NCBI GenBank assembly: GCA_903893215.1
Contig: CAITLJ010000054.1
Span: 1 to 64,000 of the forward strand
Reading direction: 5' to 3'
DNA length: 64,000 bases
Source of the DNA: an uncultured Ferrovum sp.
GTDB lineage: Bacteria > Pseudomonadota > Gammaproteobacteria > Burkholderiales > Ferrovaceae
The position numbers and the translations under genes are program-made. The notes beneath the pieces are model-generated. The model was not told the DNA's origin, did not search any database, and was given only the letters and a program-made list of their open reading frames with translations. Of the stretch, positions 32,850 to 63,542 are shown piece after piece; positions within the stretch are counted from its first letter, which is position 1, and every line of letters begins with the position of its first letter.

Positions 32850-33268
32850 GCGGATTCTCCACAAGCAGGGGCAGTAGTCAGGCGGTCAGCGCATACCAGG
32901 CGAGGACTTTTGGTGCATGGCTGATCCAAAGCAGGGCGACGCAGGCCATCCGTTGGCCGCTGGGTGCCCCTACGAACAGACAGGTGGGTGTCAATGCGGT
33001 CCGGTTCAAGGGGCGACAACACGTTTTGCTGCAATTTGCAGTGCTTTTCGAAGAGTTGGCCCGGCTCGTGCTTATAGAGCAATGTGAAGCGCGGTGCGCC
33101 CTGCGTGCCAGCTTCATTTTCTCCTCCGAGAGCGGCTTCGCCCGTTGGTGCTACGCGCCAACGGGTTTTTTTTGTGCGGGCGATCCGCCCCGCCCCCACC
33201 CAACGGGTCTGCCATCCCCTTTGTGTTAAATTCGCCGGACGGGCCTTCGCCCGGGTATCGGTTGCCGC
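32850..33268. other. Long intergenic region holding a strong terminator
   Basis: No coding gene supported. It separates the protease gene from the CobD-like gene. A plus-strand terminator sits at 33141-33173, and a second copy of its 3' arm, CCAACGGG, recurs at 33200-33207, so two downstream arms could compete for CCCGTTGG. Near the gene there is a CGGGC-CTTC-GCCCG hairpin (about 33239-33252). A short RNA ending at the terminator is possible. Confidence 0.4.
33141..33173 (+). terminator. Rho-independent terminator, about 100 bp ahead of the CobD-like gene
   Basis: CCCGTTGG pairs with CCAACGGG, extended inward by TG/CG across a CTACG loop, followed by eight T. There is no plus-strand protein gene directly upstream, so it ends either a leader transcript or a small RNA. 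Confidence 0.85.
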
Positions 33269-35154: not shown

Positions 35155-36391
35155 TGGTGAGGGTGTCCAGTCGTCCGATGCGGGTCAGGGCAGATGGATG
35201 GGAAGCGTAGATGGCTGCGTACAGCGGATCGGGTGTCAGGGTGGACGCATTGTCCTCGAACAGCTTGACCAGCGCCGAGATGAGCGCTGCGGCCGGCGCA
35301 TGGCGCGCAGCATAGGCGTCGGCCTGAAATTCATGCCGGCGCGACCAGGCACTCATCAGCGGCTGCAGCGGAAACAGCAGGTAGGGCAGGGTGAGGCTGG
35401 CGAACACCAGCAGGGCGGCTGCGCCTTCAGGCGGTATGCCCAGACCGGAACGCAGTGCCGGATCATTGCTGACTACGCCCAGCAATGCCAGCACGGCCAG
35501 GCTCAGTCCGAAGATCAGCCCCATGCGTTGCAGCACGTGGCGATGGGCGAAGTGTCCCAGTTCATGCGCCAGCACGGCTTGCACCTCGTCCGCGTCAAGG
35601 CGTTCGAGCAAGGTGTCGAAGAACACCACCCGCTTGGTGCGGCCAAAGCCGGTGAAGTAAGCATTGCCATGCGCCGAGCGGCGCGACCCATCCATCACGA
35701 ACAGGCCGGATGCGGAAAATCCGCACTGCGTCATCAGCTGTTCGATGCGGCTGCGCAAGATGCTGTCCTCAAGCGGCTTGAAAGTATTGAACAGCGGCTG
35801 GATCCAGGTGGGATAGATCAGGGTGGCCAGCACGCTGAAGGTGAGCCAGGCGACCCACGTGTAGAGCCACCAATGGGTACCCAGTGCCTGCATGATCCAA
35901 AGCACGCCAGCGGCGAGTGGTGTGCCCACCACCACGCCAAGGGCCATGCCCTTAAGCTGGTCGCTGACAAACAGGACGGGAGTGATGCGGTTGAAACCGA
36001 AGCGCGCTTCCAGCACGAAGGTGCGATACAGCGTGAGCGGTAAGTCGATCACGGCGCCGGCCACCGTCACTGCAGCGAACAGCAGCAAGCCCTGTGCGAT
36101 GCTACCCTGCAGCAGATAGGCAATCTGCGCGGACAGCCAGTCGATGCCGCCGCCCAGTGTAAAGCCGAGTGCCACCGCGGCTTCCAGCAACAGGCTGACC
36201 ATGTTGAGACGTGCTTTGGCCACCGTATAATCGGCAGCCTTGGCGTGGGCGTCCTGGCCGATGCGACCGGCAAAGCGCCCCGGTACCTGGTGACGGTGGC
36301 GCAACACATGGCGGATCTGGCGCGAGGCCAATACCAGTTGCAGGCCGGTGACGGTGATAATCAGGATCAGCAGGCAGAAGGCGGGGGTCAC
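35147..36391 (-). CDS. M48 (Ste24/CAAX-type) integral membrane metalloprotease
   Basis: 414 residues with six to seven membrane spans. The zinc motif HELGH is in VLAHELGHFAHRHVLQ, with the third ligand Glu in SRRHEFQADAYAARHAP. The N-terminal membrane domain (AKARLNMVSLLLEAAVAL, RFGFNRITPVLFVSDQLKG) is that of peptidase M48 subfamily A. Its role is likely turnover of membrane proteins; no prenylation is implied in bacteria. The start is GTG 36391 with GAGGT upstream; the earlier in-frame codons overlap orn antisense. It is co-transcribed with rsgA, a pairing widespread in betaproteobacteria. Confidence 0.93.
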   Translation of the reverse strand: MTPAFCLLILIITVTGLQLVLASRQIRHVLRHRHQVPGRFAGRIGQDAHAKAADYTVAKARLNMVSLLLEAAVALGFTLGGGIDWLSAQIAYLLQGSIAQGLLLFAAVTVAGAVIDLPLTLYRTFVLEARFGFNRITPVLFVSDQLKGMALGVVVGTPLAAGVLWIMQALGTHWWLYTWVAWLTFSVLATLIYPTWIQPLFNTFKPLEDSILRSRIEQLMTQCGFSASGLFVMDGSRRSAHGNAYFTGFGRTKRVVFFDTLLERLDADEVQAVLAHELGHFAHRHVLQRMGLIFGLSLAVLALLGVVSNDPALRSGLGIPPEGAAALLVFASLTLPYLLFPLQPLMSAWSRRHEFQADAYAARHAPAAALISALVKLFEDNASTLTPDPLYAAIYASHPSALTRIGRLDTLTNA

Positions 36392-36445
36392 GTTACCTCG
36401 AACGCCTGAAGCAGGGGCTTCAGGCTGGAATGAACAGGCAAAATT

Positions 36446-37033
36446 ATGGCACAAGACAAAAATCGACTCATCTGGATTGACCTCGAAATGACCGGATTGA
36501 TTCCGGAGCGTGACCGCATTATCGAGATGGCCATCGTGATTACCGACAGCCAGCTCAACACGGTGGCCGAGGGGCCGGTGATCGCGGTGCATCAGTCAGA
36601 AGACACGCTGGCTGGCATGGATGCCTGGAACCAGAATACCCATGGCAAATCGGGACTGACGGCCCGGGTGCGGGCCTCTGGGCACGACGATGCGCAGGCT
36701 GAAGCCCGCATGCTGGCGTTTTTGGAGCAGTGGGTTCCGAAAGGGGCCTCGCCCATGTGTGGCAACTCGATCTGCCAGGATCGTCGGTTTCTGGCCCGCT
36801 ACATGCCGGCGCTGGAAGGCTGGTTTCATTATCGCAACCTGGATGTCAGTACCCTCAAGGAGCTGGCCAAGCGCTGGTATCCGGCGGTCTACGGTGGCTT
36901 GAGCAAGTCATCACGACACGAGGCGCTGGCCGATATTTATGAATCGATCGAGGAGTTGCGCCACTATCGCACCCACATGCTGGCGCCAGCGCCGGGCCCT
37001 GCGGGCGCCGCGATGCCCGCAGCGGGGCTGTGA
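36446..37033 (+). CDS. orn: Oligoribonuclease
   Basis: 195 residues. A DEDDh 3'-5' exoribonuclease that degrades dinucleotides, including pGpG from c-di-GMP turnover. Exo I is [10 protein letters not shown] (Asp, Glu), Exo II is in [19 protein letters not shown], and Exo III is [20 protein letters not shown]. The last residues are Ala/Pro-rich beyond the usual end. It is divergent from the M48 gene with 54 bp between, and its TGA shares a base with the start of the thioredoxin-like gene. Confidence 0.97.
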
Positions 37034-37551
37034 TGGGTTGCCGCCCCGTCGGGCTGGTGCGCTGGGTCGGGTTGCTGGCCATGCTGGGCTGGACGATGAC
37101 GGCCTTGGCTGCGCCTGCAGTGGGCAGTGTGCCGCCCGACTTCACGCTGGCTGGCATGGAACAATCCGAGGTGCAGCTGGCTCGGCTGCAGGGCAAGGTG
37201 GTGGTGATCGAGTTCTGGGCTTCCTGGTGTCCGGCGTGTCAGCAGTCCATGCCCTGGCTTGAACGGCTGCAGGCGCGCTATGGCGTGCGTGGCTTGCAGG
37301 TGGTGGCGATCAATGTGGACCAGAAACGCGAGGATGCCGATGCCTGGCTTGTGGCGCATCCGCTCAAGTTGCTGCTGGCCTTCGATCCGGCCAACCGCAC
37401 GCCGCGCAGTTACGACCTCAGCGCCATGCCGGCCACTTTGGTGATCGGCGCCGATGGCAAGGTGCGTGCCGCCCACGAAGGTTTCGAGCCGGCCGATATC
37501 CCTGCCCTGGAGATGGCGGTCAAAGCCGCACTCGGTGCCCCGGTGCCCTGA
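37033..37551 (+). CDS. TlpA-like periplasmic thioredoxin
   Basis: 172 residues: signal peptide (VGLLAMLGWTMTALA), then a TlpA/ResA-type domain PPDFTLAGM, VIEFWASWCPACQQSMPWLE with the CPAC active site (about 68-71) and a cis-Pro loop AMPATLVIGADGKV. It would act as a periplasmic thiol-disulfide oxidoreductase, as in cytochrome c maturation. ATG 37033 overlaps the orn stop (TGATG), so the two are coupled. The convergent neighbour is a lone DsbD N-domain, another redox protein, which makes functional pairing attractive. Confidence 0.9.
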   Translation: MGCRPVGLVRWVGLLAMLGWTMTALAAPAVGSVPPDFTLAGMEQSEVQLARLQGKVVVIEFWASWCPACQQSMPWLERLQARYGVRGLQVVAINVDQKREDADAWLVAHPLKLLLAFDPANRTPRSYDLSAMPATLVIGADGKVRAAHEGFEPADIPALEMAVKAALGAPVP

Positions 37552-37585
37552 CTCTCGTCCTGCCGGCCATTGCGGCAAGCCTTGC

Positions 37586-37649
37586 CCATCCACCGGCACA
37601 GCCATCCACCGGTACACCCATCCACCGATACACCCATCCACCGATACAC
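37586..37649. repeat. Four 16-bp tandem repeats (minisatellite)
   Basis: Unit CCATCCACCGATACAC. Copies 3 and 4 are identical; copies 1 and 2 differ at one to three positions. It lies in the 143-bp space between two convergent genes and codes for nothing apparent. Confidence 0.93.
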
Positions 37650-37694
37650 CAGGCGCGCCCACCGCGCGCACTGCTTGCTGGCTGTCCAGTCTGG

Positions 37695-38255
37695 TCAGCG
37701 CGCTGTTGCCGCGAAAGACTTGCGCTGCGGCGGATAGCACAGGCCGGCCTCGGCGCAGCCTTGCCACAGTACGTCGAACGCCGGGCGCGCGCGGCCCGGT
37801 GTCTGTGGTGCAAAGTCGATGCTGACTTCAAAAGATTGGTGAAACACTTGCTGCGGACCGAAATACGGATCGTCCTTGGTATCTCCGGCCGGCAGGTCGA
37901 GGTGTGCGTCAAGCGGCACCGCTCGGTCCTGTGCCAGCACGCGCAGCCGGTCACGGTAAAGATAGTAGCCCGGGGTGATCATGAAGCGCCCCACCAGACG
38001 GTCCTCGCCCACCCAGGCCCAGGTGGCCTGAAACGCCTGATTGGCGGACAGGAAATGACCGCCGGGTGCTTCATCGTCCGGGTTGGCCGGCGCACCAAGG
38101 CTGGGCGTGCCTGTGACTTGCACTGCGGACGGCGGGCCGGCCAGTTCCTGTAGGCCGGTCGCACTGGCGCCAACCGGGTGCAGCGCCCAAGCCACGCCGC
38201 CCAGCCAGAGCAGGGTGGTTGCGCGCAGGCGGCATTCAAATCGCTTCTGGATCAT
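37695..38255 (-). CDS. Stand-alone DsbD N-terminal domain protein
   Basis: 186 residues: signal peptide (ATTLLWLGGVAWALHPVGAS), then an immunoglobulin-like domain with LSANQAFQATWAWVGEDRLV, FMITPGYYLYRDRLRV and the reactive-cysteine segment VLWQGCAEAGLCYPPQRKSF. This is the DsbD alpha domain, which receives electrons from the DsbD core and passes them to DsbC or CcmG. The transmembrane and C-terminal thioredoxin domains of DsbD are missing: the protein stops shortly after the second cysteine. Its first 20 bp overlap the 3' end of queG, so it is co-transcribed with it. Confidence 0.88.
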   Translation of the reverse strand: MIQKRFECRLRATTLLWLGGVAWALHPVGASATGLQELAGPPSAVQVTGTPSLGAPANPDDEAPGGHFLSANQAFQATWAWVGEDRLVGRFMITPGYYLYRDRLRVLAQDRAVPLDAHLDLPAGDTKDDPYFGPQQVFHQSFEVSIDFAPQTPGRARPAFDVLWQGCAEAGLCYPPQRKSFAATAR

Positions 38256-39360
38256 GCTTGGTCTCCGTTTTGACGGCCTCTGTCAATTGGGCAAGCGCCC
38301 AGGTCACATGTTCCCGCACCATGGCGTCCGGGTGGTCCAGCCGTTGCCGTAGCGCATGCACGGCTTCGGCCGTAGCCGGTCCGTTACCGAGCGCGACCGC
38401 AATGTTGCGCAGCCAGCGCGCGTGGCCGATCCGACGGATGGGCGAGCCCTGCAGGCGTTGTTCAAATTCGGTTGCACTCCACCCGAACAGGGTGACCAGC
38501 GCACTGCGATCGAGATCATGACGTGGGCTGAACTCTTCCGCCACCATCGCGCGCGGACCGTCGCGGTTCCAGGGGCAGAATAGCTGGCAGTCATCGCAAC
38601 CGTAAATCCGGTTGCCGATGGCCCGGCGCAGTTCAGCAGGAATGCTGCCAGGATGTTCGATGGTCAGATAGGAGATGCAGCGGCGTGCATCCACCTGATA
38701 GGGCGCCACAATCGCGCCGGTGGGACAGACATCGATGCACGTGGTGCATCGTCCGCAATGCTCGCTGACTGGCGCATCCACCGGCAGCGGCAGGCTGGTG
38801 AACAGTTCAGCCAGAAAAAACCAGCTACCGGCCTGGCGGTTCAGCAGCAGCGTGTGCTTGCCGCGCCAGCCCAGCCCGGCCTGGCGGGCCAGTTCCACTT
38901 CCAGCACGGGAGCGCTGTCGCAGAAGACCCGTCCGGCCGGCAGGCCACTGGCTGCACTCAGCGTGGTTGCAAGCCGGGCGAGCCGGGTGCGCAGCGCCTT
39001 GTGATAATCACGGCCCAGCGCATAACGCGAAACATAGGCCTGCGCCGGCGCATCCAGCAGCGCTGCGCTGGCCGCCGGATCGGCCGGGCCATAAGGCAGG
39101 GTGACACTGATCACCCGGACGGTGCCTGGCACCAGTTGCTCCGGATCGAGGCGCAGCGGTAACGAGCGTTCATACCAGTCCATGCATCCCTGCATGCCAG
39201 CCGCCAGCCAGCGGCGCAGCGGTGCCTCGGCGGCGCGCAAATCCGGCGCGCTGACGGCAACGCTGCTGAAGCCAAGCGCGGTCGCCCAGTGGTCCAGGTC
39301 GGTGCGCAATTGCTGCAATTGTTGGGCGGAAAGGGACACGGAGCAGGCCGGGGTGGTCAC
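38236..39360 (-). CDS. queG: Epoxyqueuosine reductase QueG
   Basis: 374 residues. Cobalamin- and iron-sulfur-dependent enzyme completing queuosine in tRNA. Features: GMQGCMDWYERSLPLRLDPE, YALGRDYHKALRTRLARL, the substrate loop GLGWRGKHTLLLNRQAGSWF, and two [4Fe-4S] clusters CGRCTTCIDVCPTGAI and YGCDDCQLFCPWN. A HEAT-like C-terminal tail follows (HARWLRNIAVALGNGPATAE). I chose GTG 39360; longer in-frame starts overlap the tsaE promoter area. It is divergent from tsaE, as in many proteobacteria. Confidence 0.95.
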   Translation of the reverse strand: MTTPACSVSLSAQQLQQLRTDLDHWATALGFSSVAVSAPDLRAAEAPLRRWLAAGMQGCMDWYERSLPLRLDPEQLVPGTVRVISVTLPYGPADPAASAALLDAPAQAYVSRYALGRDYHKALRTRLARLATTLSAASGLPAGRVFCDSAPVLEVELARQAGLGWRGKHTLLLNRQAGSWFFLAELFTSLPLPVDAPVSEHCGRCTTCIDVCPTGAIVAPYQVDARRCISYLTIEHPGSIPAELRRAIGNRIYGCDDCQLFCPWNRDGPRAMVAEEFSPRHDLDRSALVTLFGWSATEFEQRLQGSPIRRIGHARWLRNIAVALGNGPATAEAVHALRQRLDHPDAMVREHVTWALAQLTEAVKTETKHDPEAI

Positions 39361-39467
39361 GCGAAGGATCGCTGCAAAGCATACACCTGCGGTTTGGCTT
39401 GCAGCCGGATCGGGACTGTGTTTGCATACAGTCCGTGTCTGCTTCCGCCAAACCTGTTGTCGCATCA

Positions 39468-39947
39468 ATGTTGTGCCAGCTCGCTGATCCATCCGCCACC
39501 GAAGCGTTGGGGCAGGCGCTGGCGGACTGTGTTCGCCCGGGCATGCTGGTCACCCTGGACGGGCCGCTGGGCAGCGGCAAAACCCATCTGGTGCGCGCCC
39601 TGCTGCGCGCCATCGGCCATTCCGGACGGGTACGCAGTCCCACGTATACGGTGATGGAGCCCTATGATCTGGCCTGGGGGCGTGTCTGCCATTTCGACTT
39701 CTATCGCTTCTCCAAAGATTTTGAGGCAGACGATGCCGGACTGCGTGAAGAATTCAACGCTGCCACCCTGTGTGTGGTGGAGTGGCCCCTGCAAGCCGGC
39801 GAGTGGCTGCCGTCGGCCGATCTGGCCTTGATCTGGCAGCCAGTGACCGAGGGCCGTCTGGTCCAGATATGCGCCGCAGCGTCCACCTGCCTGCCGGTCT
39901 GGCCTGCGCAGTCCGCCAATCCTGGCGGTACGGGAGCGAAGGCATGA
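39468..39947 (+). CDS. tsaE: tRNA threonylcarbamoyladenosine ATPase subunit TsaE
   Basis: 159 residues. P-loop ATPase that regenerates the TsaB-TsaD complex during t6A37 modification. Walker A GPLGSGKTHLVRALLRAI, switch region GRVRSPTYTVMEPYDL, CHFDFYRF and the Walker B-like CVVEWPLQAGEWLP are all present. ATG 39468 gives the normal length. It leads a four-gene operon; its stop overlaps the amiC start as ATGA. Confidence 0.96.
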   Translation: MLCQLADPSATEALGQALADCVRPGMLVTLDGPLGSGKTHLVRALLRAIGHSGRVRSPTYTVMEPYDLAWGRVCHFDFYRFSKDFEADDAGLREEFNAATLCVVEWPLQAGEWLPSADLALIWQPVTEGRLVQICAAASTCLPVWPAQSANPGGTGAKA

Positions 39948-41661
39948 GTCATCGCTTGGGTCTGGGTCTTGGTCTGGGTGGGCAGGGGGCTTCGCGCGCC
40001 TGCAAACACCTGCAGATGCTGTTGGCTGCGGCCTGCGCGTTGTTGATCAGCGCGCAGGCTTGCGCGCAAGGCCTGCAACATGGTGTCCTGCTGACCGGCG
40101 CACGCCTGTGGCCGGCACAGGACTACACGCGCCTTACGCTGGAGGCGCGCAGCCCGCTGCACTGGACCCTGTTCTCTGTGGAATCGCCGGATCGGCTGGT
40201 GCTTGACCTGGAAGGCGTGGATCCGGGGGCTGCCACGGAAGCCTTGCCCGGGCGGGTCCGGCCCGATGATCCCTGGGTCCGGGCGATCCGCGTCGGGCGC
40301 TTCAAACCCGGCGTGCTGCGTGTCGTGCTCGATCTGAAGGCGGCGGTCAAGGCATCGGCTTCCCTGTTACAGCCGGCGGGCGAATATGGGTACCGGCTGG
40401 TGGTCGATATCTATCCGTCGGTTCCCGTCGATCCCTTGATGGCCTTGCTGGAAAGTCGTGAGCGCAGTGCTGGCAGGATGGCGGACGCTACAGCGGCGAG
40501 CGCGGCAGCGGCAAGTGCTGCAACGGCGACCGCTGCAACGGAAGGTCCGGTGGCCAGCGCTGCGTCGTCAGGGAGTGCTGCGCCAACCCCGCCTTCTGTG
40601 TCATCGGGTCCTGCAAGCGCATCTGCAACTGCATCTGCATCTGCAACTGCAACGTCACCCTCAACGTCACCCGTATCGACAGTTGTATCGATACCGACAT
40701 CGTCACCTGCACCTGCACCTGTATCAACATTTGTATCGACACCGGCGTCACCACCTGCACCTTCACCGGCGTCCGCAGCAGCAGCGGCATTGGCACGGGC
40801 CTCGGCCCCGGCCTCGCTCGCCAGCTCCGCAAGCGCACCCGCATCGGTCCCGCCACCGTCTGCAGTATCAACACCTGCCCCTGCCGGCACCGCGGCGCAC
40901 GTGGCCATGCCAGGGCGTCCCGGGGCATCGTCCAATCTGCCTATGCTCACGATTGCGATCGATGCCGGTCACGGTGGCGAGGATCCCGGCGCACATGGCG
41001 AGGCTGGCACGCTCGAGAAAGAAGTCACATTGGCAGTGGCGCAGCGTGTTCGCGACCGCGTCAATGCCGAGCCCAACCTGCGCGGCGTGCTGATCCGCGA
41101 TGGCGATTACTTCATCCCGTTGGGCGGTCGCACCGCCAAGGCGCGCCAACTGCACGCCGACCTGTTCGTATCGATCCACGCCGATGCCTTCATCAGCAAG
41201 GACGCACGCGGTTCATCGGTCTTTGCCCTGTCCGAACGCGGTGCCACCTCGGTGGCGGCGCGTTGGCTGGCCAACCGTGAAAACCAGGCCGACCAGATCG
41301 GTGGTGTCAACCTGAACGCCCGCGATCCTTATCTGGCACAAACCCTGTTCGACCTGTCGCAAACCGCCACCATTGCCGACAGCCTCCGGCTGGCGCGCTC
41401 GGTACTGCGCGAACTGGGCGGACTCAATCCCTTGCATCGCGGCGAAGTCGAGCAGGCCGGCTTTGCCGTGCTGAAGGCGCCGGACATTCCCTCCATCCTC
41501 GTCGAGACGGCCTTCATCAGCAATCCGTACGAGGAGAAACGGCTGGCCGATCCCGCCTACCAGGAGCGACTGGCAGACACCATCGTGCGTGGCATCAAAC
41601 ATTACCTGCAGTCGCGCCCGGCGCAGGCCCGTCCAAAACTGTCGCAGCGCGACGAGACACC

Positions 41662-54551: not shown

Positions 54552-55859
54552 TTGAAGTCGGGCCTGGCTGCGCCGCTGCGACCGGTCCTCGACGACGGAC
54601 CCACGCGGGCCAACCTGCGCCGCCTGGCCGTGTTGCGACTGGTGGCCCTGCTGGCTATCGCGGCACTGGCATGGGGTTTGCAGGGCGCCTTGGGGCTGAC
54701 GGTGTCATCCTCCGGGCTGCTCTGGAGTGCATTGGCCGTGATCGGGCTTAGCCTGTTCACGCTTTGGCGCGCCAGCCAGTCCTGGCCGGTGCAACCCTTC
54801 GAGCTGGCGCTGCAACTGGCGCTCGACATCGTTGCCTTGAGCGCCGTGTTTCAGGCCAGCAGCGGGGCCGCCAATCCGTTTGTGTCGCTCTATCTGGTGC
54901 CGGTGGTGGTGGCCGCCACCACCCTGCCACGCCTGCAGGTGTGGCTGCTGGCGGCGCTGGCCTGTGCCGGCTATACCCTGCTGCTGCTGGAATATGCCCC
55001 GGCCATGCATCATCACCATCCCGGTGCGCCAGCCGAATTTGACCTGCACGTGGTGGGCATGTGGGGCAACTTCGTGTTGAGTGCCGCCATCATCGGGGTG
55101 GCGGTCGTCAATATGGGGGCGGCCCTGCGCGCGCGCGAAACCCATCTGGCGCAGGCGCGCGAGGACATGCTGCGCAACGAGCAGATCATGGGACTCGCCA
55201 CATTGGCGGCCGGCGCAGCGCATGAGCTGGGCACGCCGCTCTCCACCCTGGCGGTGCTCAGCCGGGAGCTGCAACTGGAGTGTGCCGACCGCCCGGAACT
55301 CGAGGACGATTTTCGCCTCCTGCGCGCGCAGGTCAGCGTTTGCAAGGACATCATCCAGCGCATGCTGGCGCGCAATCCGGGTGGGGAAGGGGCCCTTGTT
55401 CTGATCGACCTGAAGTCCATGCTGGCGCAGATCATCGACCAATGGCGCCTGATGCGACCGGGTGCGGTGCTGAGTTACGACGATCACCGGATCGTGCCCG
55501 ATCAGCTGGTGCGGCAGGACCTTCATCTGGCACAGGCGCTGATCAACGTACTCAACAATGCGGCGGATGCCTCACCGGACCATGTCCAGGTGAGCGCTGC
55601 GATGGTGGGCGATCGGCTGCAACTGCAGGTGCTGGATCAGGGCAATGGCGTGGATTCTGCCGTGGCCCACCAGCTCGGGCGGGCCTGGTTTTCCACCAAG
55701 GCAGAGAGCGGACGCGGCCTTGGCATGTTTCTCACCAACGCCACGCTGGAGCGCATGGGCGGCACCGTGGCGCTGGTCAACCGCCCGGATGGTGGTGCAT
55801 GCACCACCATCGACCTGCCGCTGGCGGCGCTACAGCCCGTGACCGGAGTCGCCCGGTGA
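54552..55859 (+). CDS. regB: Redox-sensing histidine kinase, RegB/PrrB/ActS type
   Basis: 435 residues from TTG 54552. Six membrane spans (about 28-185), then H-box AGAAHELGTPLSTLAVLS with phospho-acceptor His224 and a GHKL ATPase domain (NVLNNAADASP; ESGRGLGMFLTNATL). Two redox features of RegB are kept: the quinone-site stretch SSGAANPF (103-110; GGxxNPF in RegB) and a cysteine at 264 in VSVCKDIIQ, the position of the oxidisable Cys265 of Rhodobacter RegB. It would signal the state of the quinone pool or oxygen. Directly after phaZ and before regA. Confidence 0.9.
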   Translation: MKSGLAAPLRPVLDDGPTRANLRRLAVLRLVALLAIAALAWGLQGALGLTVSSSGLLWSALAVIGLSLFTLWRASQSWPVQPFELALQLALDIVALSAVFQASSGAANPFVSLYLVPVVVAATTLPRLQVWLLAALACAGYTLLLLEYAPAMHHHHPGAPAEFDLHVVGMWGNFVLSAAIIGVAVVNMGAALRARETHLAQAREDMLRNEQIMGLATLAAGAAHELGTPLSTLAVLSRELQLECADRPELEDDFRLLRAQVSVCKDIIQRMLARNPGGEGALVLIDLKSMLAQIIDQWRLMRPGAVLSYDDHRIVPDQLVRQDLHLAQALINVLNNAADASPDHVQVSAAMVGDRLQLQVLDQGNGVDSAVAHQLGRAWFSTKAESGRGLGMFLTNATLERMGGTVALVNRPDGGACTTIDLPLAALQPVTGVAR

Positions 55860-55923: not shown

Positions 55924-56481
55924 ATGAGCGCCCCCGGTTTGCCTGTGTTGCTGCTTGTGGATGATGACCTCACCCTGGGTCAGGTGCTGGAACGCGCCCT
56001 CACCCGACGCGGCTTTGCCGTGGTGCGCGCCGACGGCGTGCAGGCCGCGCAGACCGTACTTGCCAGCCTGCAACCGCAGTTTGCCGTGCTCGATCTCAAG
56101 TTGGGAGATGGTTCTGGCCTGCAATTGGTCGCTGGCCTGCGCGCCCGGTGTCCTGCAGTGCGGATGCTGATGCTGACCGGTTACGCCAGTCTGGCCACGG
56201 CAGTGGAGGCGATCAAGCTGGGGGCGGATGATTATCTTGCCAAGCCGGTCGATGCCGACCAGATCGTGGCAGCCCTGCGCGGCGAAGCCCCGCCGCGCGC
56301 TGCCGGGCGCGAGGAGGGAAGCGACGATGCCATGAGCATGCACCGGCTGGAGTGGGAGCACATCCAGCGGGTGCTGAGCGAGGTGGACGGCAATATCTCG
56401 GAAGCGGCCCGGGTGCTGGGCATGCACCGACGCACCCTGCAGCGCAAGCTGCTCAAGCGCCCCAGTCCGGGACAAGGCTGA
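55924..56481 (+). CDS. regA: Response regulator, RegA/PrrA/ActR type
   Basis: 185 residues. Receiver domain with LLVDDDLTLGQVLERAL, phosphorylation Asp in FAVLDLKLGDGSGLQLV, and Lys in YLAKPVDAD; Ala/Arg-rich linker; C-terminal Fis-type helix-turn-helix DGNISEAARVLGMHRRTLQR. This short layout and DNA-binding helix are those of RegA/PrrA. It is the partner of the preceding RegB kinase and would adjust genes for redox metabolism, possibly the nearby cytochrome operon. Confidence 0.94.
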   Translation: MSAPGLPVLLLVDDDLTLGQVLERALTRRGFAVVRADGVQAAQTVLASLQPQFAVLDLKLGDGSGLQLVAGLRARCPAVRMLMLTGYASLATAVEAIKLGADDYLAKPVDADQIVAALRGEAPPRAAGREEGSDDAMSMHRLEWEHIQRVLSEVDGNISEAARVLGMHRRTLQRKLLKRPSPGQG

Positions 56482-56548: not shown

Positions 56549-57196
56549 TCAGGCGACCCGGCGCAGGGTGTTGCGGCTGAGTCGTACGCCCTCGGGCAGC
56601 GTCTGACCTGCGCTTGCAGACGGCAGCGCTTGCGGCAGCATGGCGGTCAGCACGTGGTCTTTGCGTACGAAATGATGATAAAGCGCGGCTGCCACATGCA
56701 GGCTGACCATGCCCAGCATGGTCCAGGAGGCCAGCACGTGCAGGTCGGTCAGCTGGTCGGCCAGGTCCGCGTCGGCCCCGACCAGCGCGGGTAGCGGCAG
56801 CAGGCCCAACAGTCGCAGCTGCACGCCATGGCCACTGCTGAGCGCCCATCCCAGCATCGGCACTGCCAGCAACACACCATACAAGCCCAGATGCGCGGCA
56901 TGTGCAGCCCAGCGTGCCAGCACCGGGCTATCGGACAGGGTGTCCGCCATGCGGGTCCTGACCCGTGCCACCAGACGCAGCGCCAGGGCCAATAAAACCG
57001 CCAGCCCGAGTTGTCGGTGGCTTTCCAGAAGCAGGGTACGCAGGCTGCCGCCCTCGACCAGTTCGCGCAGCAGGATGGATGCCGCAGCCCCCATCACCAG
57101 CAGCGCGCTGCCCCAGTGCAGGGCGATTGTGACGTAGCTGTGGCGCGGCTCGGCAGGGCGTGTGTTGGCTTGGAGTGCGGACGGGGGCTTGGTCAT
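56549..57196 (-). CDS. Cytochrome b561-type membrane protein (copy 1)
   Basis: 215 residues with four membrane spans. VTIALHWGSALLVMGAAASI (His), LLESHRQLGLAVLLALALRL (His), the loop GWALSSGHGVQLRLLGLLPL and WTMLGMVSLHVAAALYHHFV (His pair) supply heme ligands of the YodB/CybB-like cytochrome b561 family. It carries electrons between quinone and periplasmic or membrane partners. A close paralog lies 6 kb away at the other end of the MtrA/MtrB cluster. Both share an upstream TTCTAAA/TTTTA motif. A candidate quinone link for the outer-membrane conduit (inference). Confidence 0.88.
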   Translation of the reverse strand: MTKPPSALQANTRPAEPRHSYVTIALHWGSALLVMGAAASILLRELVEGGSLRTLLLESHRQLGLAVLLALALRLVARVRTRMADTLSDSPVLARWAAHAAHLGLYGVLLAVPMLGWALSSGHGVQLRLLGLLPLPALVGADADLADQLTDLHVLASWTMLGMVSLHVAAALYHHFVRKDHVLTAMLPQALPSASAGQTLPEGVRLSRNTLRRVA

Positions 57197-57436
57197 TTCG
57201 GGATCTCCTTGTGGGCGCTTGCGGGCGGGCGTGGTGAACGACTCGCCTAAAATTTAGAACATGTCAGCTTATTTGCGCCATGCCCCGGGCCCTGCATTTG
57301 TGCGCCGCAAAACCCTCCTTTTTCCACCGCTGAACCCTACAAAGCCCAAGAAAATGGGCTTGCGCCACCCCAATTCAAGCCAAAAGTTTCTCAGACTCGT
57401 GAAATTTTGTTGCGTTGCACGGAATCGGGCACCAAT

Positions 57437-57458
57437 AAAGCGAATATTTGCTTTTTTT
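57437..57458 (+). terminator. Possible rho-independent terminator or hairpin
   Basis: AAAGCGA pairs with TTGCTTT across ATAT, followed by more T (57452-57458). No gene is located upstream on this strand, so it would end a short RNA or act within a leader. The stem is AT-rich and modest. Confidence 0.4.
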
Positions 57459-57637
57459 GATGGTGTTGGTAGGGTCAAATGAACGTATCCTTGCGCCAAC
57501 CCTACGGGTTCTTAAGAAATTGAAGCAGGGTTTTCAGGTACAGCGCCGGCCAATCCCGCTGACTAGACTGTCGAAAAGCATACAGGGCAGCCGCTTCAAG
57601 GCCGGATCCCCGGCACACGCTGGCCAGTCTGGGCCAT

Positions 57638-57666
57638 TTGTCGGTTGATTCTTAAATTTATTTAAT
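57638..57666 (+). promoter_or_regulatory. Candidate promoter of the cytochrome/MtrA/MtrB operon
   Basis: TTGTCG (57638-57643), 17-bp spacer, TTTAAT (57661-57666). The start codon at 57686 has GGAG (57674-57677) eight bases before it. Transcription from here would leave a very short leader. Confidence 0.35.
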
Positions 57667-57685
57667 AAACTAGGGAGTTGTAAAA

Positions 57686-58066
57686 ATGCGTGTCAATTTC
57701 AGGGTGTTGATCAGCATGTTCGTCGCCACTGGCGCCATCCTTGCGTTGCCCGTCCACGCGGCGGTGGATGTCGAGGCAGCCCAGGCGCTGGCCAAGTCCA
57801 GTGGCTGTACCAAATGCCATGCCGTCGACAAGAAAAAGGATGGCCCTGCCTATCGCGACGTGGCGGCCAGTTACAAGGGGGCGGCAGATGCCGAAGCGCA
57901 TCTGATCCATCACATCACCAGTGGCGAAAAGGTCAAATTCGACGACGGTCATGAGGAAGACCACAAAAAGGTGAAAAGCAAGGATCCCGCCGAGATCAAC
58001 AACCTGGTCGGCTGGATCCTGTCGCTGGAAGGCGGCAAGAAATACACGCCCAACACCCACCACTGA
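57686..58066 (+). CDS. Monoheme class I cytochrome c (MtoD-like)
   Basis: 126 residues: signal peptide (VLISMFVATGAILALPVHAA) and one heme site CTKCH in LAKSSGCTKCHAVDKKKDGP. The rest is short and Lys/His/Asp-rich (HHITSGEKVKFDDGHEEDHK) with a C-terminal helix NNLVGWILSL. Size and position before mtrA/mtrB-like genes match the periplasmic shuttle MtoD of iron oxidisers. It would carry electrons between the decaheme cytochrome and inner-membrane carriers. First gene of the operon, 21 bp before the decaheme gene. Confidence 0.85.
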   Translation: MRVNFRVLISMFVATGAILALPVHAAVDVEAAQALAKSSGCTKCHAVDKKKDGPAYRDVAASYKGAADAEAHLIHHITSGEKVKFDDGHEEDHKKVKSKDPAEINNLVGWILSLEGGKKYTPNTHH

Positions 58067-58087
58067 GCCTGCCTGCGGAGTCCAATC

Positions 58088-59050
58088 ATGCGTATTCCTT
58101 CACTGTTGCGGGGCAGCGTGCTGTGGTTTGTGCTGTCCTGTCTGGTCCCGGCCGCGCTCGCTGCCGCCGAAGCCCCGGTCGACCGCACCTTGACCGGTGA
58201 CAAGGTCTGTACCCGCTGTCATGACGAGTCAGAAGCCAAGCCGGTGCTCTCGATCTATCAGACCCCCCATGGCGTCAAGGCCGACGGGCGCACGCCGGGC
58301 TGTCAGTCCTGCCATGGCGCCAGTGAAGCGCATGTGAAGAATGCCGCAGGTGCCGAAACCCGTCCGGCGGTGGATGTGCTGTTCGGCAAGGGCGCGGATG
58401 CCGCCAGGGTGTCGGCCGCCTGCGTCAGCTGCCATCAGGGCGGGGCCCGTATGCATTGGCCCGGCAGCGCGCATCAGACCCGGGATGTGACCTGTACCAA
58501 CTGTCACAAGGTGCATGCCGCACATGATGACGTGCGCGACCGCAAGACACAGGCCGAGGTTTGCTACACCTGCCATGCAGCGCAACGCGCCCAGTCCCAC
58601 CGCATTTCGGCGCATCCGCTCAAGGATGGCAAGATGGCTTGTTCGGATTGCCACAATCCGCACGGCTCGATCGGTCCCAAGCTGCTGATCAAGGCCACAG
58701 TCAACGAGACCTGCTACACCTGTCATGCGGATCGCCGCGGTCCCTTCCTGTGGGAGCACCAGCCGGTGACGGATGACTGCAGCAACTGCCATACGCCGCA
58801 TGGCTCGAACAATGCGCCCCTGCTCAAGGCGCGCGAACCCTGGCTGTGCCAGGAGTGCCACTCTGCCAACCATGCACGCACGGTCTACAGCGGGCAGAAC
58901 CTGCCCGGTAGCGCCCAGATCACCCTGAACGGCGCGCAGGACCCTGGCAAGCAGGCGCCCACAGCGCAACTCAACGGCCGCAGCTGCTCGGCCTGTCACG
59001 CCAAGGTACACGGCTCGAACCATCCGGCCGGCGCCAAGTTCAACCGCTGA
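58088..59050 (+). CDS. Decaheme c-type cytochrome, DmsE/MtrA family
   Basis: 320 residues with a signal peptide (LWFVLSCLVPAALA) and exactly ten heme-binding motifs: CTRCH, CQSCH, CVSCH, CTNCH, CYTCH, CSDCH, CYTCH, CSNCH, CQECH, CSACH, spread along the whole length as in MtrA, MtoA, PioA and DmsE. Such proteins thread through an MtrB-type barrel and pass electrons across the outer membrane. The pairing with the barrel gene 18 bp downstream makes this role likely. Whether electrons go out (metal or DMSO reduction) or in (iron oxidation) is not evident. Confidence 0.95.
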   Translation: MRIPSLLRGSVLWFVLSCLVPAALAAAEAPVDRTLTGDKVCTRCHDESEAKPVLSIYQTPHGVKADGRTPGCQSCHGASEAHVKNAAGAETRPAVDVLFGKGADAARVSAACVSCHQGGARMHWPGSAHQTRDVTCTNCHKVHAAHDDVRDRKTQAEVCYTCHAAQRAQSHRISAHPLKDGKMACSDCHNPHGSIGPKLLIKATVNETCYTCHADRRGPFLWEHQPVTDDCSNCHTPHGSNNAPLLKAREPWLCQECHSANHARTVYSGQNLPGSAQITLNGAQDPGKQAPTAQLNGRSCSACHAKVHGSNHPAGAKFNR

Positions 59051-59068
59051 GGCCAGGGAGACCCCATC

Positions 59069-61669
59069 ATGAACAATCCCCGCATCAAACTCCTCGCCCT
59101 GGCCGTGCACGCATCGCTGCTGCTGGCCGCCCGTCACGCCGTTGCGGATGATCCGACCGCGGCAGAGCTCACCACCCCGCGCAGCACCGTAGAGATCGGC
59201 GTGGAGGAAATCAACAAGTCCAGCTTCGACGCCGGCCGCTACGATGGCCGTTATCGGCAGGGTCCCAACACCATTGGCAACGTCGACCTGTACGGGGGCG
59301 GCAGTTACGACAGCAACGATGCCACCCGTTGGCAGCTGCATGGGCACGATCTGGGTTATGCCAGCCGCGACCTCGAAGCCGAGTACGGCGTGCAGGGGGA
59401 CTACCGCATCACCTTCGACCAGGACCACCTGCGCCGCAACCTGTCGGACAGCTACCGCACACCCTATCAGGGCATCGGCACACCAGTGCTCAGCCTGCCC
59501 GCCGGCTGGGTGTTTCCTGCGGCCAGCAACTCTTCCGCGGGCAATTTCCCGGCGGGTGTGGCCAACTCGCCCAAGCTGCAGCTGAACCTGTTCCAGCCGG
59601 TTGATCTTTACACCGAACGCACGCGGACTGACCTTGGCTTCAGTTATGAACTCGGGCAGGGATGGGGACTGGATACCCGTTACAGGCACGACTTCAAGCA
59701 GGGATTGCGCGACCAGTCGGCACCGCTCAACCTGCCCGGCGACCGTTCCTTCGACCTGCCCGATGCCGTCAACCAGACCACCGATGAATTTGATGCCACG
59801 GTGCGCTACACCGGTCAGGTCAGCCAGTGGACCTTCGGCTACGAGGGGGTGCGCTTCCGCAATGGACAGCCGTCGCTGACCTTTCCGAATGCGCTCACGG
59901 CCAATAACCTGGGCCTGATCAGCGAGTCGCCGGCCAACCAGTTCGATCAGCTGAACGCCACTGGTGCGTTCAACATGACGGGTGGCACCCACCTGACGGT
60001 GGGCGGCTCGTACGGGCGCAACACGCAGAATGATGCGTTCCTGCCCACCACCACGGTGGCCGGTCTGACGTATGTGCCGCTGACCGCAGCAGGAGGACTG
60101 GGCACGGCAGCCGCCATTGCCAACCTGCCGGAAAGCTCGCTGCACGGTTTTGTCGCCACCACGCATCTGTTTGCCAAGCTCAACGGCCATTTCACGCCGG
60201 CCTGGGGCTGGGCCACCAACGCGCGCTACGACGAACGCGACAACCGCACGCCGGTGCAGTCTTTCGTATTCAACGACGTCGACAATTATCCCAACACCAC
60301 CACGGCTGCGACCGCATCCAAACCGGCTTCCACCTCGGTGAATTACCGGTCAAACACGCCGTACAGCAAGCGCAACGAGAAGCTGGGGTTTGACACCGAC
60401 TATCGCCTGCCTTTCGGGCCAGTGCTGGCCTTCGGCGATGACTGGGAGCGCGTTCACCGCTATTGCAACGGCACCTTCACCGCGTGCGAAAACACGCCGC
60501 GCACCACCGAGAACACACTTCGTGGTGAACTGCGCACCACTTTTCACGAGGACACCCAGGCGCGGTTGGCGGTGGCCTATGGTGACCGACGGACCAGTGG
60601 TTACAATCAGGACGCAACCCTCTGGGCGGGCGCGGGCATGAATCAGGCGGCGGCGCTGGCCGCAATCGCCCGACTCAATGCGAGTGGGTACCCCGTCTGG
60701 GGACCCAATGCCGCGTATTCGGCCACGCCAGCTGTGGCGCCGGGCGTGCTGTTTCCCAACAACAACACGTTTGCGGCATCCACACCGGGACTCGCGCCCT
60801 TCTTCGGTCGTTCCAATGCTTTCGACATCACCGGTCTGGAACATTTTGACGAGAGTGCCCGCAAGCGCGAGAAACTGCGCGCGTCGGTTTCGCATGAGCT
60901 GACCGAGAAAGTGTCGCTACAGGCCGGGCTGGACTACAACCGCGACCGTTATCCGGATGATCTGTATGGCCTGCAGGAAAGCCGGGCCTTTGCACTCCAT
61001 TTCGATGTGACCTATGCCGCCAGCGAGCAGGCCACGGCCAACCTGTTCTTCACCCACGAGGATACGGCGCAGCGGATCAATGGTTCGACCTGGGGGACCA
61101 ATGCCGCGCCGCCGGCTGCCACTTCGCCGCCCACGCAGAACACCTTTGCTGACTGCAACGGCAACCCGACCACGTTGGCGGCACGCGCCGCAATTGCTAA
61201 GATCGACCAGTGCTTTGCCTGGCAGAACCGCCAGCGCGAAGTGGCCGATACTGTCGGCGTTGGCTCGCGTCGCACCGGCTTGATGGGCGGACGGCTTGAG
61301 GTATCTGGCGATGCCGTGTTCAGCCGGGCCCGCAGTGATTCGACCTTTCCTTTCGGCGGGGTCTACGCCAACGTGCTAAGCCCGGGCTTTCCGGCCACGG
61401 CCACCTTGCAGGTTCCCACCTACTTCCATGCCACCAACCTGCCGGGCGTCACCACCCTGACGCTCGACCTGCACCTGCAGGGCGGGTACCAGATCGACAA
61501 GGTGTCGCAGGTCAAGGTGGGTTATCGCTTCGGCTGGATCCGCAGTGCCGACTACGCTTATCAGGCCCTGCAACCGGGCACCAACCAGGCGTATCTGCCG
61601 ACCTTTCAGCAGTCGCCGGCAGCCAGCGTGCAGGCGATCGGCGTGTCCTACGTGCGGCAGATCGACTGA
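59069..61669 (+). CDS. MtrB/PioB-family decaheme-associated outer-membrane beta-barrel
   Basis: 866 residues. Signal peptide (LLALAVHASLLLAARHAVAD), then the family N-terminus STVEIGVEEINKSSFDAGRY, and many alternating strands (DLYGGGSYDSNDATRWQLHG, YRITFDQDHLRRNLSDSYRT) ending in an aromatic/hydrophobic strand (AIGVSYVRQID). It forms the sheath that holds the decaheme cytochrome. Four cysteines occur in the second half but there is no N-terminal CxxC as in Shewanella MtrB. Longer than PioB (about 810) owing to Ala/Thr-rich loops. A strong palindrome and terminator follow. Confidence 0.93.
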   Translation: MNNPRIKLLALAVHASLLLAARHAVADDPTAAELTTPRSTVEIGVEEINKSSFDAGRYDGRYRQGPNTIGNVDLYGGGSYDSNDATRWQLHGHDLGYASRDLEAEYGVQGDYRITFDQDHLRRNLSDSYRTPYQGIGTPVLSLPAGWVFPAASNSSAGNFPAGVANSPKLQLNLFQPVDLYTERTRTDLGFSYELGQGWGLDTRYRHDFKQGLRDQSAPLNLPGDRSFDLPDAVNQTTDEFDATVRYTGQVSQWTFGYEGVRFRNGQPSLTFPNALTANNLGLISESPANQFDQLNATGAFNMTGGTHLTVGGSYGRNTQNDAFLPTTTVAGLTYVPLTAAGGLGTAAAIANLPESSLHGFVATTHLFAKLNGHFTPAWGWATNARYDERDNRTPVQSFVFNDVDNYPNTTTAATASKPASTSVNYRSNTPYSKRNEKLGFDTDYRLPFGPVLAFGDDWERVHRYCNGTFTACENTPRTTENTLRGELRTTFHEDTQARLAVAYGDRRTSGYNQDATLWAGAGMNQAAALAAIARLNASGYPVWGPNAAYSATPAVAPGVLFPNNNTFAASTPGLAPFFGRSNAFDITGLEHFDESARKREKLRASVSHELTEKVSLQAGLDYNRDRYPDDLYGLQESRAFALHFDVTYAASEQATANLFFTHEDTAQRINGSTWGTNAAPPAATSPPTQNTFADCNGNPTTLAARAAIAKIDQCFAWQNRQREVADTVGVGSRRTGLMGGRLEVSGDAVFSRARSDSTFPFGGVYANVLSPGFPATATLQVPTYFHATNLPGVTTLTLDLHLQGGYQIDKVSQVKVGYRFGWIRSADYAYQALQPGTNQAYLPTFQQSPAASVQAIGVSYVRQID

Positions 61670-61720
61670 CCTGCCCGGGTGGCGGTCCCGGGCGTGTTTT
61701 CCCGGGGGCTGCAGGGTTGG

Positions 61721-61742
61721 TGGCTGGCAGCGCTGCCAGCCA
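61721..61742. repeat. 22-bp perfect palindrome after the MtrB-like gene
   Basis: TGGCTGGCAGC followed by its inverse GCTGCCAGCCA, with no spacer. It lies 52 bp past the stop codon and would form a cruciform or a tight hairpin in RNA, possibly protecting the operon's 3' end. Confidence 0.85.
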
Positions 61743-61769
61743 GCGGACCGGCGGGTCTGGTTGTTGCAC

Positions 61770-61797
61770 ATGCCCGGGCATCATGCCCGGGCATTTT
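61770..61797 (+). terminator. Terminator of the MtrA/MtrB-type operon
   Basis: Two copies of the 12-bp palindrome ATGCCCGGGCAT separated by one C; together they fold into one long stem, followed by TTT and CATTAT. Position 100 bp after the mtrB-like stop and before the next gene fits transcription end. Confidence 0.75.
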
Positions 61798-61854
61798 CAT
61801 TATACTGGGCACTCGCTTGATTGACGGGTCACAGGCCCACGGGAGAAGTGCGCG

Positions 61855-62277
61855 ATGAGCAAGGACACCCCAAGCAACGAGATGTTCGAAGCCTTCCAGA
61901 AGATGATCAATCCAATGGCTTTTCCCATGCAGAACCTGCTGATGGGCGGCATGAAACTGGAAGAAGTCGAGCGCAAGGTCAGTGAACTGCGCACGGTGCA
62001 CCATTGGCTGTCGACCAATCTTGGCATGCTCGAACTCAGCATCAAGACTCTCGAATACCAGGCAGCTCTGCTGCAACCGGCCAGCAAGGACCCTGCCAGT
62101 GTGTCGGCTGAGGCCGCTGCCACGGCGGCGCAGAATCCTTTCATGAACCCCTCGCTGTGGCCGTGGCCTTACGGTCAGGCCGGTGCGCCGGAGGCGGCGG
62201 CAGACGCCGCGGCCAGTGCCCCGCCAAAAGCCAAGGCTGCCGCGTCCAGCACCAGCAGCACCCGCAAGCCGCGTTGA
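61855..62277 (+). CDS. PhaM-like polyhydroxyalkanoate granule protein
   Basis: 140 residues. EMFEAFQKMINPMAFPMQNL followed by MKLEEVERKVSELRTVHHWL and STNLGMLELSIKTLEYQAAL matches the PhaM family: an N-terminal amphipathic region, a helix pair, and a flexible Ala/Lys/Pro/Ser-rich tail (about 110-140) for nucleoid or granule binding. In Ralstonia, PhaM activates PHB synthase and tethers granules to DNA. The tail is short here. It stands alone between a terminator and the TlpA-like gene, 5 kb from phaZ. Confidence 0.85.
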   Translation: MSKDTPSNEMFEAFQKMINPMAFPMQNLLMGGMKLEEVERKVSELRTVHHWLSTNLGMLELSIKTLEYQAALLQPASKDPASVSAEAAATAAQNPFMNPSLWPWPYGQAGAPEAAADAAASAPPKAKAAASSTSSTRKPR

Positions 62278-62285
62278 GGGGGCGC

Positions 62286-62873
62286 GTGCTCTCACGATGG
62301 CTTGCGATCGCGCTGGGGCTGGTCCCGCTGTGGTTCGTGCCTGCTGCGGTGGCAGCGGCAGCCGGTACGGCGGGTGTGGTGGCACTGGGTTCGGCGGCTG
62401 GCACCACCAACGCGACGACTGCGCGCGAGGTGGCGGTCGGGAGCGTACTGCGCGAGGCCAAGCTCAAGGGCCTCAACGGGCCGTCGCGCCAGCTCTCCAG
62501 CTATCGCGGCAAGCCGCTGATCATCAATGTCTGGGCCAGTTGGTGCGGTCCCTGCCGCGAAGAAGCCGCGTCGCTGGAGCAATTGGCGTGGAGTCCCTTG
62601 GGTGCCAGCGTCACCATCATCGGTATCTCCACCGACGACTTTGCTGAAAATGCGCAGGGCTGGCTGCGGCAGTCCAATGCCACCCTGACGCACTACATCG
62701 ACCAGCAGCTCGAAATGGAAACCATGCTCGGTGCCAGCCACCTGCCGCTCACCGTTTTCGTGGATGCCAATGGCAAGGTGCTGCGCAAGGTCACCGGAGC
62801 CCAGGATTGGACCGGTCCACGGGCAGCCGGCTGGATTCGTGCGGCCTTTCCGAACAAGCTTCCGCATCCATAA
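62286..62873 (+). CDS. TlpA/ResA-like thiol-disulfide oxidoreductase
   Basis: 195 residues from GTG 62286 with GAGGGGG ahead. Signal or anchor (WLAIALGLVPLWFVPAAVAA), then a thioredoxin domain with LIINVWASWCGPCREEAASL (CGPC, about 89-92), ITIIGISTDDFAENAQG-type core (in fact VTIIGISTDD) and LPLTVFVDANGKVLRKVTG with cis-Pro. Periplasmic reductant, probably for apocytochrome c maturation; suits the neighbouring heme proteins. It starts 8 bp after the PhaM-like gene, so it shares its transcript. Confidence 0.88.
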   Translation: MLSRWLAIALGLVPLWFVPAAVAAAAGTAGVVALGSAAGTTNATTAREVAVGSVLREAKLKGLNGPSRQLSSYRGKPLIINVWASWCGPCREEAASLEQLAWSPLGASVTIIGISTDDFAENAQGWLRQSNATLTHYIDQQLEMETMLGASHLPLTVFVDANGKVLRKVTGAQDWTGPRAAGWIRAAFPNKLPHP

Positions 62874-62909
62874 CCCGGCCTTTGACCCGGATCAGGGCTT
62901 GGCTGTGGG

Positions 62910-63542
62910 TCAGGCGGCGATGGCGTCGTCGCAGCGACCTTCGTTGACTGCGTCGGTCTGCCCATCGGCGGTGGCCTTGCCCGGCAGCATGGCTGAGAGC
63001 ACCTGGTCACGACGAACATAGTGGTGGTAGAGCGCGGCACCGATGTGCAGGGTGACCATCACCAGCAGGGCCCAGGACACCAGGATGTGGTAATCGGTGA
63101 GGGTATCGGCGAAATCAGAATCAGCGGCGGTGATCATTGGTAGGGGCAGCATGCCCAGAAATTTCAGTTGCACGCCGTGGGCATTGCTGAGGGCCCAGCC
63201 TAGCATCGGGATGGCGAGGATCAGGGCATACAGTGCGTAGTGGGCGCCCTTGGCGGCGATACGCATAGGCAGGGACATGCCAGCTTCGGTATGGGCCATG
63301 CCCTTGATGCTGCGAACCACCAGACGGGCGACCCAAGCGGCCAGCACCAGCATGCCCACCTGACGGTGCGATTCGACCAGCAGCGTGCGGATGGCGGAGT
63401 CTTCAACAAGTTCGCGCACCAGGATGGTGGCGGCCGCAGCCAAAAAGAGCAGGGCGCTGGCCCAGTGCAGGGCGATGGTGGCAGTGTGGTGCTTGAGCCA
63501 GGTTGAAGCATTGCCGGCGCTGGTGATCCCGTTTGCGTTCAT
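62910..63542 (-). CDS. Cytochrome b561-type membrane protein (copy 2)
   Basis: 210 residues, four membrane spans and the same ligand pattern as copy 1: TATIALHWASALLFLAAAAT, LLVESHRQVGMLVLAAWVAR, GWALSNAHGVQLKFLGMLPL and WALLVMVTLHIGAALYHHYV. The two are clear paralogs (for example REL V-E-x-G/D-SxRTLL, QLTDLHVLASW versus TLTDYHILVSW). It points toward the TlpA-like gene. Start ATG 63542 with GGAGAA ahead. A candidate inner-membrane electron carrier linked to the conduit. Confidence 0.88.
   Translation of the reverse strand: MNANGITSAGNASTWLKHHTATIALHWASALLFLAAAATILVRELVEDSAIRTLLVESHRQVGMLVLAAWVARLVVRSIKGMAHTEAGMSLPMRIAAKGAHYALYALILAIPMLGWALSNAHGVQLKFLGMLPLPMITAADSDFADTLTDYHILVSWALLVMVTLHIGAALYHHYVRRDQVLSAMLPGKATADGQTDAVNEGRCDDAIAA

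Follow-up and report, generated by a model that had tools for sequence, protein, structure and literature searches.

The mto operon and its flanking genes

We analysed a window of 64,000 nucleotides, contig CAITLJ010000054.1, from the genome of an uncultured Ferrovum sp. (3.27 Mb in 84 contigs, 99.46% complete). Near its end, the window encodes a porin-cytochrome complex of the MtrAB/MtoAB/PioAB type, in which a decaheme cytochrome and an adjacent outer-membrane barrel are encoded in the same operon, together with two diheme b-type cytochromes of the b561 family. The features of the locus are the following:

54555..55859, plus strand: RegB/PrrB/ActS-type redox sensor kinase (NF033792, 201 bits, under the cut-off of 350; start uncertain, 54405 also possible)
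55924..56481, plus strand: RegA/PrrA/ActR-type response regulator (NF033791, 190 bits, under the cut-off of 250; convergent with b561_1)
56549..57196, minus strand: b561_1, diheme b-type cytochrome of the CybB/superoxide-oxidase fold, 215 aa (PF01292, 77 bits against a cut-off of 30)
57197..57685, no strand: b561_1-mtoD intergenic region of 489 bp, presumed divergent promoter region (GC 50.5% against 64.6% for the window)
57686..58066, plus strand: MtoD-like periplasmic monoheme cytochrome c, 126 aa (best solved relative 4XXL)
58088..59050, plus strand: MtoA, decaheme cytochrome of the MtrA/DmsE family, 320 aa, ten CXXCH (TIGR03508, 290 bits)
59069..61669, plus strand: MtoB, MtrB/PioB outer-membrane beta-barrel, 866 aa (PF11854, 352 bits; TIGR03509)
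61672..61694, plus strand: terminator-like hairpin directly 3' of mtoB (hairpin scan)
61770..61794, plus strand: stronger terminator-like hairpin, a perfect stem of 11 pairs followed by TTTCATTATA, ending the mto operon
61855..62277, plus strand: phaM, PhaM-family polyhydroxyalkanoate (PHA) granule protein (NF043076, above cut-off)
62286..62873, plus strand: TlpA/ResA-like thioredoxin, GTG start, 195 aa (PF00578)
62910..63542, minus strand: b561_2, paralogue of b561_1, 210 aa (PF01292, 88 bits)

A first-pass annotation, made from the sequence alone, had placed a monoheme cytochrome c, an MtrA/DmsE-type decaheme cytochrome and an MtrB/PioB barrel in one operon, with a b561 paralogue at either end. 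All three conduit proteins are present, and the family models of the decaheme cytochrome and the barrel score above their curated cut-offs. The b561 paralogues are also there and are 53-57% identical, but they do not point outward and inward as described: both are encoded on the minus strand, with b561_1 diverging from mtoD and b561_2 converging on tlpA. Likewise, every gene named was found, but phaM, between mtoB and tlpA, had been missed.

The assignment of the conduit rests on family models, solved relatives and a predicted fold. MtoA exceeds the curated cut-off of TIGR03508 (192 bits), shows ten CXXCH motifs when these are counted in the alignment, and matches MtrA of 6R2Q (6r2q_A, E 5e-67). 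MtoB scores 294 bits against TIGR03509 (curated cut-off 240), and its AlphaFold model, built with 30 sequences (pTM 0.71), has MtrB (6r2q_B) as top PDB match with a TM score of 0.89 on the target; homology and predicted fold together indicate a barrel that holds the ten-heme wire of MtoA. For the monoheme protein, 4XXL, the MtoD of Sideroxydans lithotrophicus ES-1, is by far the best solved relative (E 1.6e-37). MtoD is bis-His ligated (PMC4412085). The window protein appears to be of this bis-His type, since its mature form (signal peptide removed) contains no Met and His/Met ligation is thereby excluded. Because the monoheme protein is MtoD-like, the conduit is assigned to the Mto (electron-uptake) sub-type, which sharpens the earlier, correct call of an MtrAB/MtoAB-type conduit. 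In a tree of 113 MtoA sequences, the window protein falls within the large Mto radiation (SH-aLRT 98), without a clear sister; window MtoB has no clear sister in its own tree either.

The operon most likely consists of three genes, mtoD-mtoA-mtoB, with tlpA outside it, because two terminator-like hairpins stand 3' of mtoB. The hairpin scan of the region gave 7 sites where 5.8 were expected; therefore, only the perfect 11-pair stem carries weight, and the argument rests on position and stem length. No convincing sigma-70 site was found in the b561_1-mtoD intergenic region.

The b561 proteins and their neighbours

Neither b561 protein contains a CXXCH motif; both are bacterial diheme b561s of the CybB fold, a four-helix bundle with four His ligands. 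In b561_2 (Met-inclusive numbering throughout), H26, H59, H152 and H166 align with the heme ligands H13, H45, H137 and H151 of Escherichia coli CybB. The latter protein, superoxide oxidase (SOO; 5OC0), is the only solved sequence relative of the window b561s and the top fold match of the predicted b561 model, whose confidence is moderate (pLDDT 67). The two paralogues are sisters in the tree (support 100/91); within the family they have no close orthologue, their closest relative being only 39% identical. A fragment of about 100 bp on another contig of the window genome (C44; L249:3949-4047), 84% identical to b561_2 and 70% identical at the protein level over 33 codons, is apparently the remnant of a further copy.

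A scan of genome contigs with a single MtoB protein returned no relatives; repeated with an MtoA alignment, the search had as its top match Betaproteobacteria isolate BP_15 (VBCK01000138.1, here L142). In this genome a b561 gene starts 63 bp 3' of mtoB on the same strand, in the slot of cymA. PF03264 (the CymA/NapC/NrfH family) has no match above cut-off there, the sole sub-threshold match lying in a 36-heme cytochrome. In the MtoB tree, L142 MtoB belongs to a 100/99 clade that excludes window MtoB, so that the two are not sisters and the b561 pairing is not simply tracking descent of the conduit. Neither b561_2 nor MtoA had a close, informative match in searches of plasmids.

A model built from b561_1, b561_2 and the L142 b561 was run against 399 genomes of the order. 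One protein, from G345, scored far above the rest (185.6 bits; next 143.0), and its gene stands 15 bp 5' of one for a Cyc2-like protein. The fourth-ranked match outside the model's own members, from G088, stands 51 bp 5' of another Cyc2-like gene, after which comes a monoheme cytochrome. Together the five b561s make up one clade (100/97 among 61 sequences; SH-aLRT 97 among 121), of which leave-one-out profiles recover four members clearly, and its signature residues are, in b561_2, R43, R60 (after heme ligand H59) and D143. By the Cyc2 criteria used here (the motif AXPXFAR[Q/K][T/Y], taken from PMC8406198, one CXXCH, PXL and more than 365 aa), the neighbours in G345 and G088 and those in the genus mate G001 (see below), of 426-514 aa, are probable Cyc2 proteins; the motifs read ALPSFARQT (G345), AVPSFARQT (G088) and ALPAFARQT (G001, copy b), and copy a of G001 has Y for F.

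Sixty further b561 neighbourhoods were taken from the same match list, mostly 8 kb and in some cases shortened by contig ends. None (0/60) contains Cyc2, MtrAB, CymA or a protein with at least three hemes. Because three of the five clade members were found via their neighbours, the fair contrast is limited to G345 and G088, which were found by sequence alone: adjacency to iron-oxidation genes in 2/2 against 0/60 (Fisher p 5e-4), with small numbers.

Seen from the conduit side, the arrangement is rare. Among 111 other MtrAB clusters (family, a sample of the order, and named loci), the candidate partner is CymA in 37, another multiheme gene in 20, a four-helix monoheme protein of about 245 aa in 9 and a b561 in one, that of L142; the remaining 44 have none of these types. 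A b561 neighbour is thus rare among such conduits, a variant rather than a conserved flank. The family itself holds eight mtoB loci in seven genomes. A CymA-like four-heme gene follows mtoB in all six clusters that can be read (order mtoD-mtoA-mtoB-cymA), the other two loci being at contig ends, and no b561 occurs in the flanks of these loci. The ~245-aa protein, with one CXXCH, occupies the CymA slot after mtoB in Methylococcaceae-type mto clusters (L146:12665-13390, L151:12633-13373, L153:12586-13317); for the L146 copy, neither Pfam nor NCBIfam gave a match, and the protein is a candidate alternative inner-membrane partner.

A comparison within the genus, combining DNA searches with gene calls, delimits the cassette. 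In G002, PhaZ-RegB-RegA is followed directly by PhaM-TlpA-DHFR, with neither conduit nor b561; RegA and PhaM were seen here by DNA match, the simple gene caller having merged the stretch into a reverse open reading frame. G003 and G004 have the order PhaZ-PhaM-DHFR, and in G001 PhaZ-RegB-RegA precedes two Cyc2-like genes, a diheme cytochrome c and PhaM-DHFR (L243:5989-9895). MtoB was found in none of G001-G004. Genus mates thus carry RegBA, PhaM and, in some cases, TlpA without the conduit, which makes these genes older neighbours and not conduit parts. The thioredoxin, which the first-pass annotation had counted inside the conduit, is accordingly rejected as a component: the hairpins end the operon after mtoB, and G002 has TlpA where no conduit exists. 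The variable slot lies between RegBA and PhaM, occupied by b561_1-mtoDAB in the window and by Cyc2 in G001; a second change, between TlpA and DHFR, is b561_2. The difference in the slot arose either by an insertion in this genome or by losses in its genus mates.

The quinone side of the conduit

The mto cluster contains no CymA/ImoA or MtoC quinone protein. The absence of CymA had been noted for the window, and it extends to the whole genome, where PF03264 has no match. Between 54 and 64 kb there is no multiheme gene besides mtoA; MtoC or CbcL elsewhere in the genome is not exhaustively excluded, and the scan for paired CXXCH motifs misses wide-spaced cytochromes, MtoA itself included, so that it cannot exclude other multiheme proteins. 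The reported lack of a surface MtrC-like cytochrome also stands: no MtrC/OmcA-type decaheme protein is encoded beside the operon, and the only match to PF22113 in the genome lies on another contig (C31), in a giant cytochrome with 54 hemes. That cytochrome (2382 aa) belongs to a PCC3-like cluster (C31, bases 30685-40863; L037:6685-16863) with a 27-heme protein of 705 aa and a 299-aa inner-membrane protein that carries both WX3HX13H motifs and SGXXG. The L142 genome (L303) has a similar set, with cytochromes of 24 and 36 hemes. The window genome also encodes a Cyc2-like protein with the deviant motif AIPAFAEQT, E for R (contig C62; L256:1477-2829), and Cyc2-like proteins occur in all five members of the genus.

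We give about an even chance to the reading in which an Mto-type conduit uses the b561 pair in place of CymA/ImoA or MtoC to exchange electrons with quinones, with net inward flow. MtoB would hold the MtoA wire across the outer membrane, and MtoD would act as periplasmic monoheme carrier. The two b561s, of a distinct clade, would sit in the inner membrane and exchange electrons between periplasmic MtoA or MtoD at heme 2 and the quinone pool at a cytoplasmic-side site near heme 1. This would follow E. coli SOO, in which electrons enter at heme 2 from the periplasm and quinone is reduced near heme 1, towards the cytoplasm; the enzyme, with hemes at -8/+100 mV, works in both directions with ubiquinone and menaquinone (PMC11869295). 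The likeliest net direction would be inward, with Fe(II) outside the cell or some other reduced mineral as the source; the MtoD type, a cluster without MtrC, and Cyc2 both in the homologous G001 slot and beside the sister b561s all point this way. The idea that b561 replaces CymA, already in the first-pass annotation, gains plausibility from the nearest b561 relatives, which lie directly beside MtoAB or Cyc2; docking with MtoD or MtoA, the quinone partner and the reason for two copies are, like the direction of flow, what we infer. More broadly, and with somewhat less assurance, we suggest that a dedicated clade of small diheme b561s could form a further class of inner-membrane quinone oxidoreductase in extracellular electron uptake, besides CymA, CbcL/MtoC and ImcH, interchangeable between MtoAB and Cyc2, which are unrelated iron oxidases of the outer membrane.

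Several observations weigh against the Mto reading with the b561 pair as quinone link and inward flow. (i) The quinone-site residues of E. coli SOO (H87, H158, D164) and the four heme-ligand His are kept in all five clade members, but they are also kept in nearly all b561s; therefore, they show competence and not specificity. (ii) Only five members, from four genomes, make up the clade, and the leave-one-out score of G088 is borderline: 148.9 bits, where non-members reach 154.9. (iii) The first-pass annotation would have given up the pairing if homologous clusters in relatives lacked b561 neighbours, and such a b561 is missing from 110 of the 111 other MtrAB clusters and from most MtoAB and Cyc2 loci; starting from the b561 clade, however, the association does hold, and the genome has no CymA. 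(iv) b561_1 is divergent from the operon, and phaM and tlpA separate b561_2 from it. (v) The PCC3 inner-membrane protein of the window genome could serve as the link. (vi) A search of the window genome found no RuBisCO, so that classic autotrophy on Fe(II) lacks support. (vii) MtrAB-type conduits can carry electrons either way (PMC10734462). (viii) MtoD of ES-1, at +155 mV, is slightly too high for easy reduction of ubiquinone (PMC4412085, PMC13390432). Because of this potential, and because the 2026 revision sends MtoD toward an oxidase, the b561 link might draw on MtoA or a lower-potential carrier.

An alternative that we consider unlikely gives the b561s the role of superoxide oxidases: superoxide would arise at the envelope when O2 reacts with Fe(II) or with reduced conduit hemes, and the b561s would scavenge it, feeding ubiquinone and protecting the conduit from outside the main line. 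The relationship to E. coli SOO, by sequence and by fold, speaks for this, as does the retained quinone site, and the proposal accounts equally well for Cyc2 and MtoAB adjacency. The cationic superoxide patch is incomplete. R30 and R38 are kept, but in 5/5 clade members R35 is replaced by D/G/S, R108 by H/Q and K134 by T/Q/E, and removal of these charges lowers the activity of E. coli SOO (PMC11869295). The periplasmic loop before the third ligand is strongly acidic, with a charge of -4 to -7 in the clade against a mean of -1.2 (sd 1.2) in other b561s, only 5/115 of which reach -4 or below. The acidic loop and the three lost patch residues would favour docking of a partner over collection of superoxide. 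The L142 b561, moreover, occupies the slot that is otherwise that of cymA.

Rather improbable, in our estimate, is a pathway with no dedicated quinone protein, in which MtoD would pass electrons downhill to a high-potential oxidase and to the bc1 complex in reverse while b561 does something else. MtoD did not interact with ImoA, and a terminal oxidase was proposed as its acceptor (Coelho 2026); Thiomonas has mtoABD with no inner-membrane redox gene (He 2017, PMC5566968), and 28 of 85 well-flanked MtrAB clusters have no recognised partner. This scheme, however, leaves unexplained the recurrence of the b561 clade beside Mto and Cyc2 in four genomes. Outward use, in which b561 oxidises quinol and a heterotroph delivers electrons to Fe(III), Mn(IV) or humics, fits the missing RuBisCO, the adjoining PHA metabolism genes, the reversibility of E. 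coli SOO and the capacity of such conduits to conduct in either direction, but is the most doubtful given the MtoD-type carrier, the lack of an MtrC/OmcA-like gene in the cluster and the Cyc2 genes in the G001 slot and beside the sister b561s.

Relation to known systems

The conduit is of a known kind, and the association of a b561 clade with Mto and Cyc2 appears new. In the open-access literature searched, we found nothing linking a stand-alone CybB-type b561 to Cyc2 or MtoAB, and a survey of quinone proteins in the field lists only multiheme c-type families (PMC6295460). The route from outer-membrane iron oxidases to the quinone pool is unsettled; even in the best-studied Mto pathway the assumed link was revised in 2026 (PMC13390432). 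The b561 clade offers a small, expressible candidate made of a single polypeptide, and it can mark out a group among the putative iron oxidisers without CymA.

MtrCAB-CymA of Shewanella, whose MtrAB is solved in 6R2Q, shares the MtrA and MtrB families and the barrel fold with the window cluster, which lacks MtrC and CymA and has an MtoD-type carrier. Unlike in DmsEFAB, no DmsAB reductase genes adjoin, the neighbours being RegBA, PhaM, TlpA and b561; unlike in PioABC, the operon has no high-potential iron-sulfur protein PioC, mtoB being followed by the hairpins and then phaM. With E. coli CybB the b561s share the fold, the four heme-ligand His and the quinone-site His/Asp, but three of five cationic-patch residues, the charge of the periplasmic loop and the genomic context differ.

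Three Mto systems come closer. MtoAB-MtoD-CymA(ImoA) of S. lithotrophicus ES-1 shares the decaheme MtoA, the MtoB barrel, the MtoD-type monoheme protein and the lack of a surface MtrC in the cluster, whereas the window genome has no CymA/ImoA and its cluster no second monoheme protein (PmcA), with two b561 genes instead. Thiomonas likewise has mtoA, mtoB and mtoD without cymA or mtoC (He 2017, PMC5566968), but no inner-membrane redox gene is reported nearby, whereas the window has b561 on both sides. In the mto locus of Gallionellaceae sp. of culture KS, a b561-type inner-membrane protein also lies beside the operon and was proposed as quinone partner (He 2017, PMC5566968). That protein, Cytbc, is a b561 fused to a diheme cytochrome c, in a locus that encodes two small c-type cytochromes but lacks MtoD, whereas the b561s of the window are stand-alone diheme proteins of about 210 aa, present in two copies and accompanied by MtoD.

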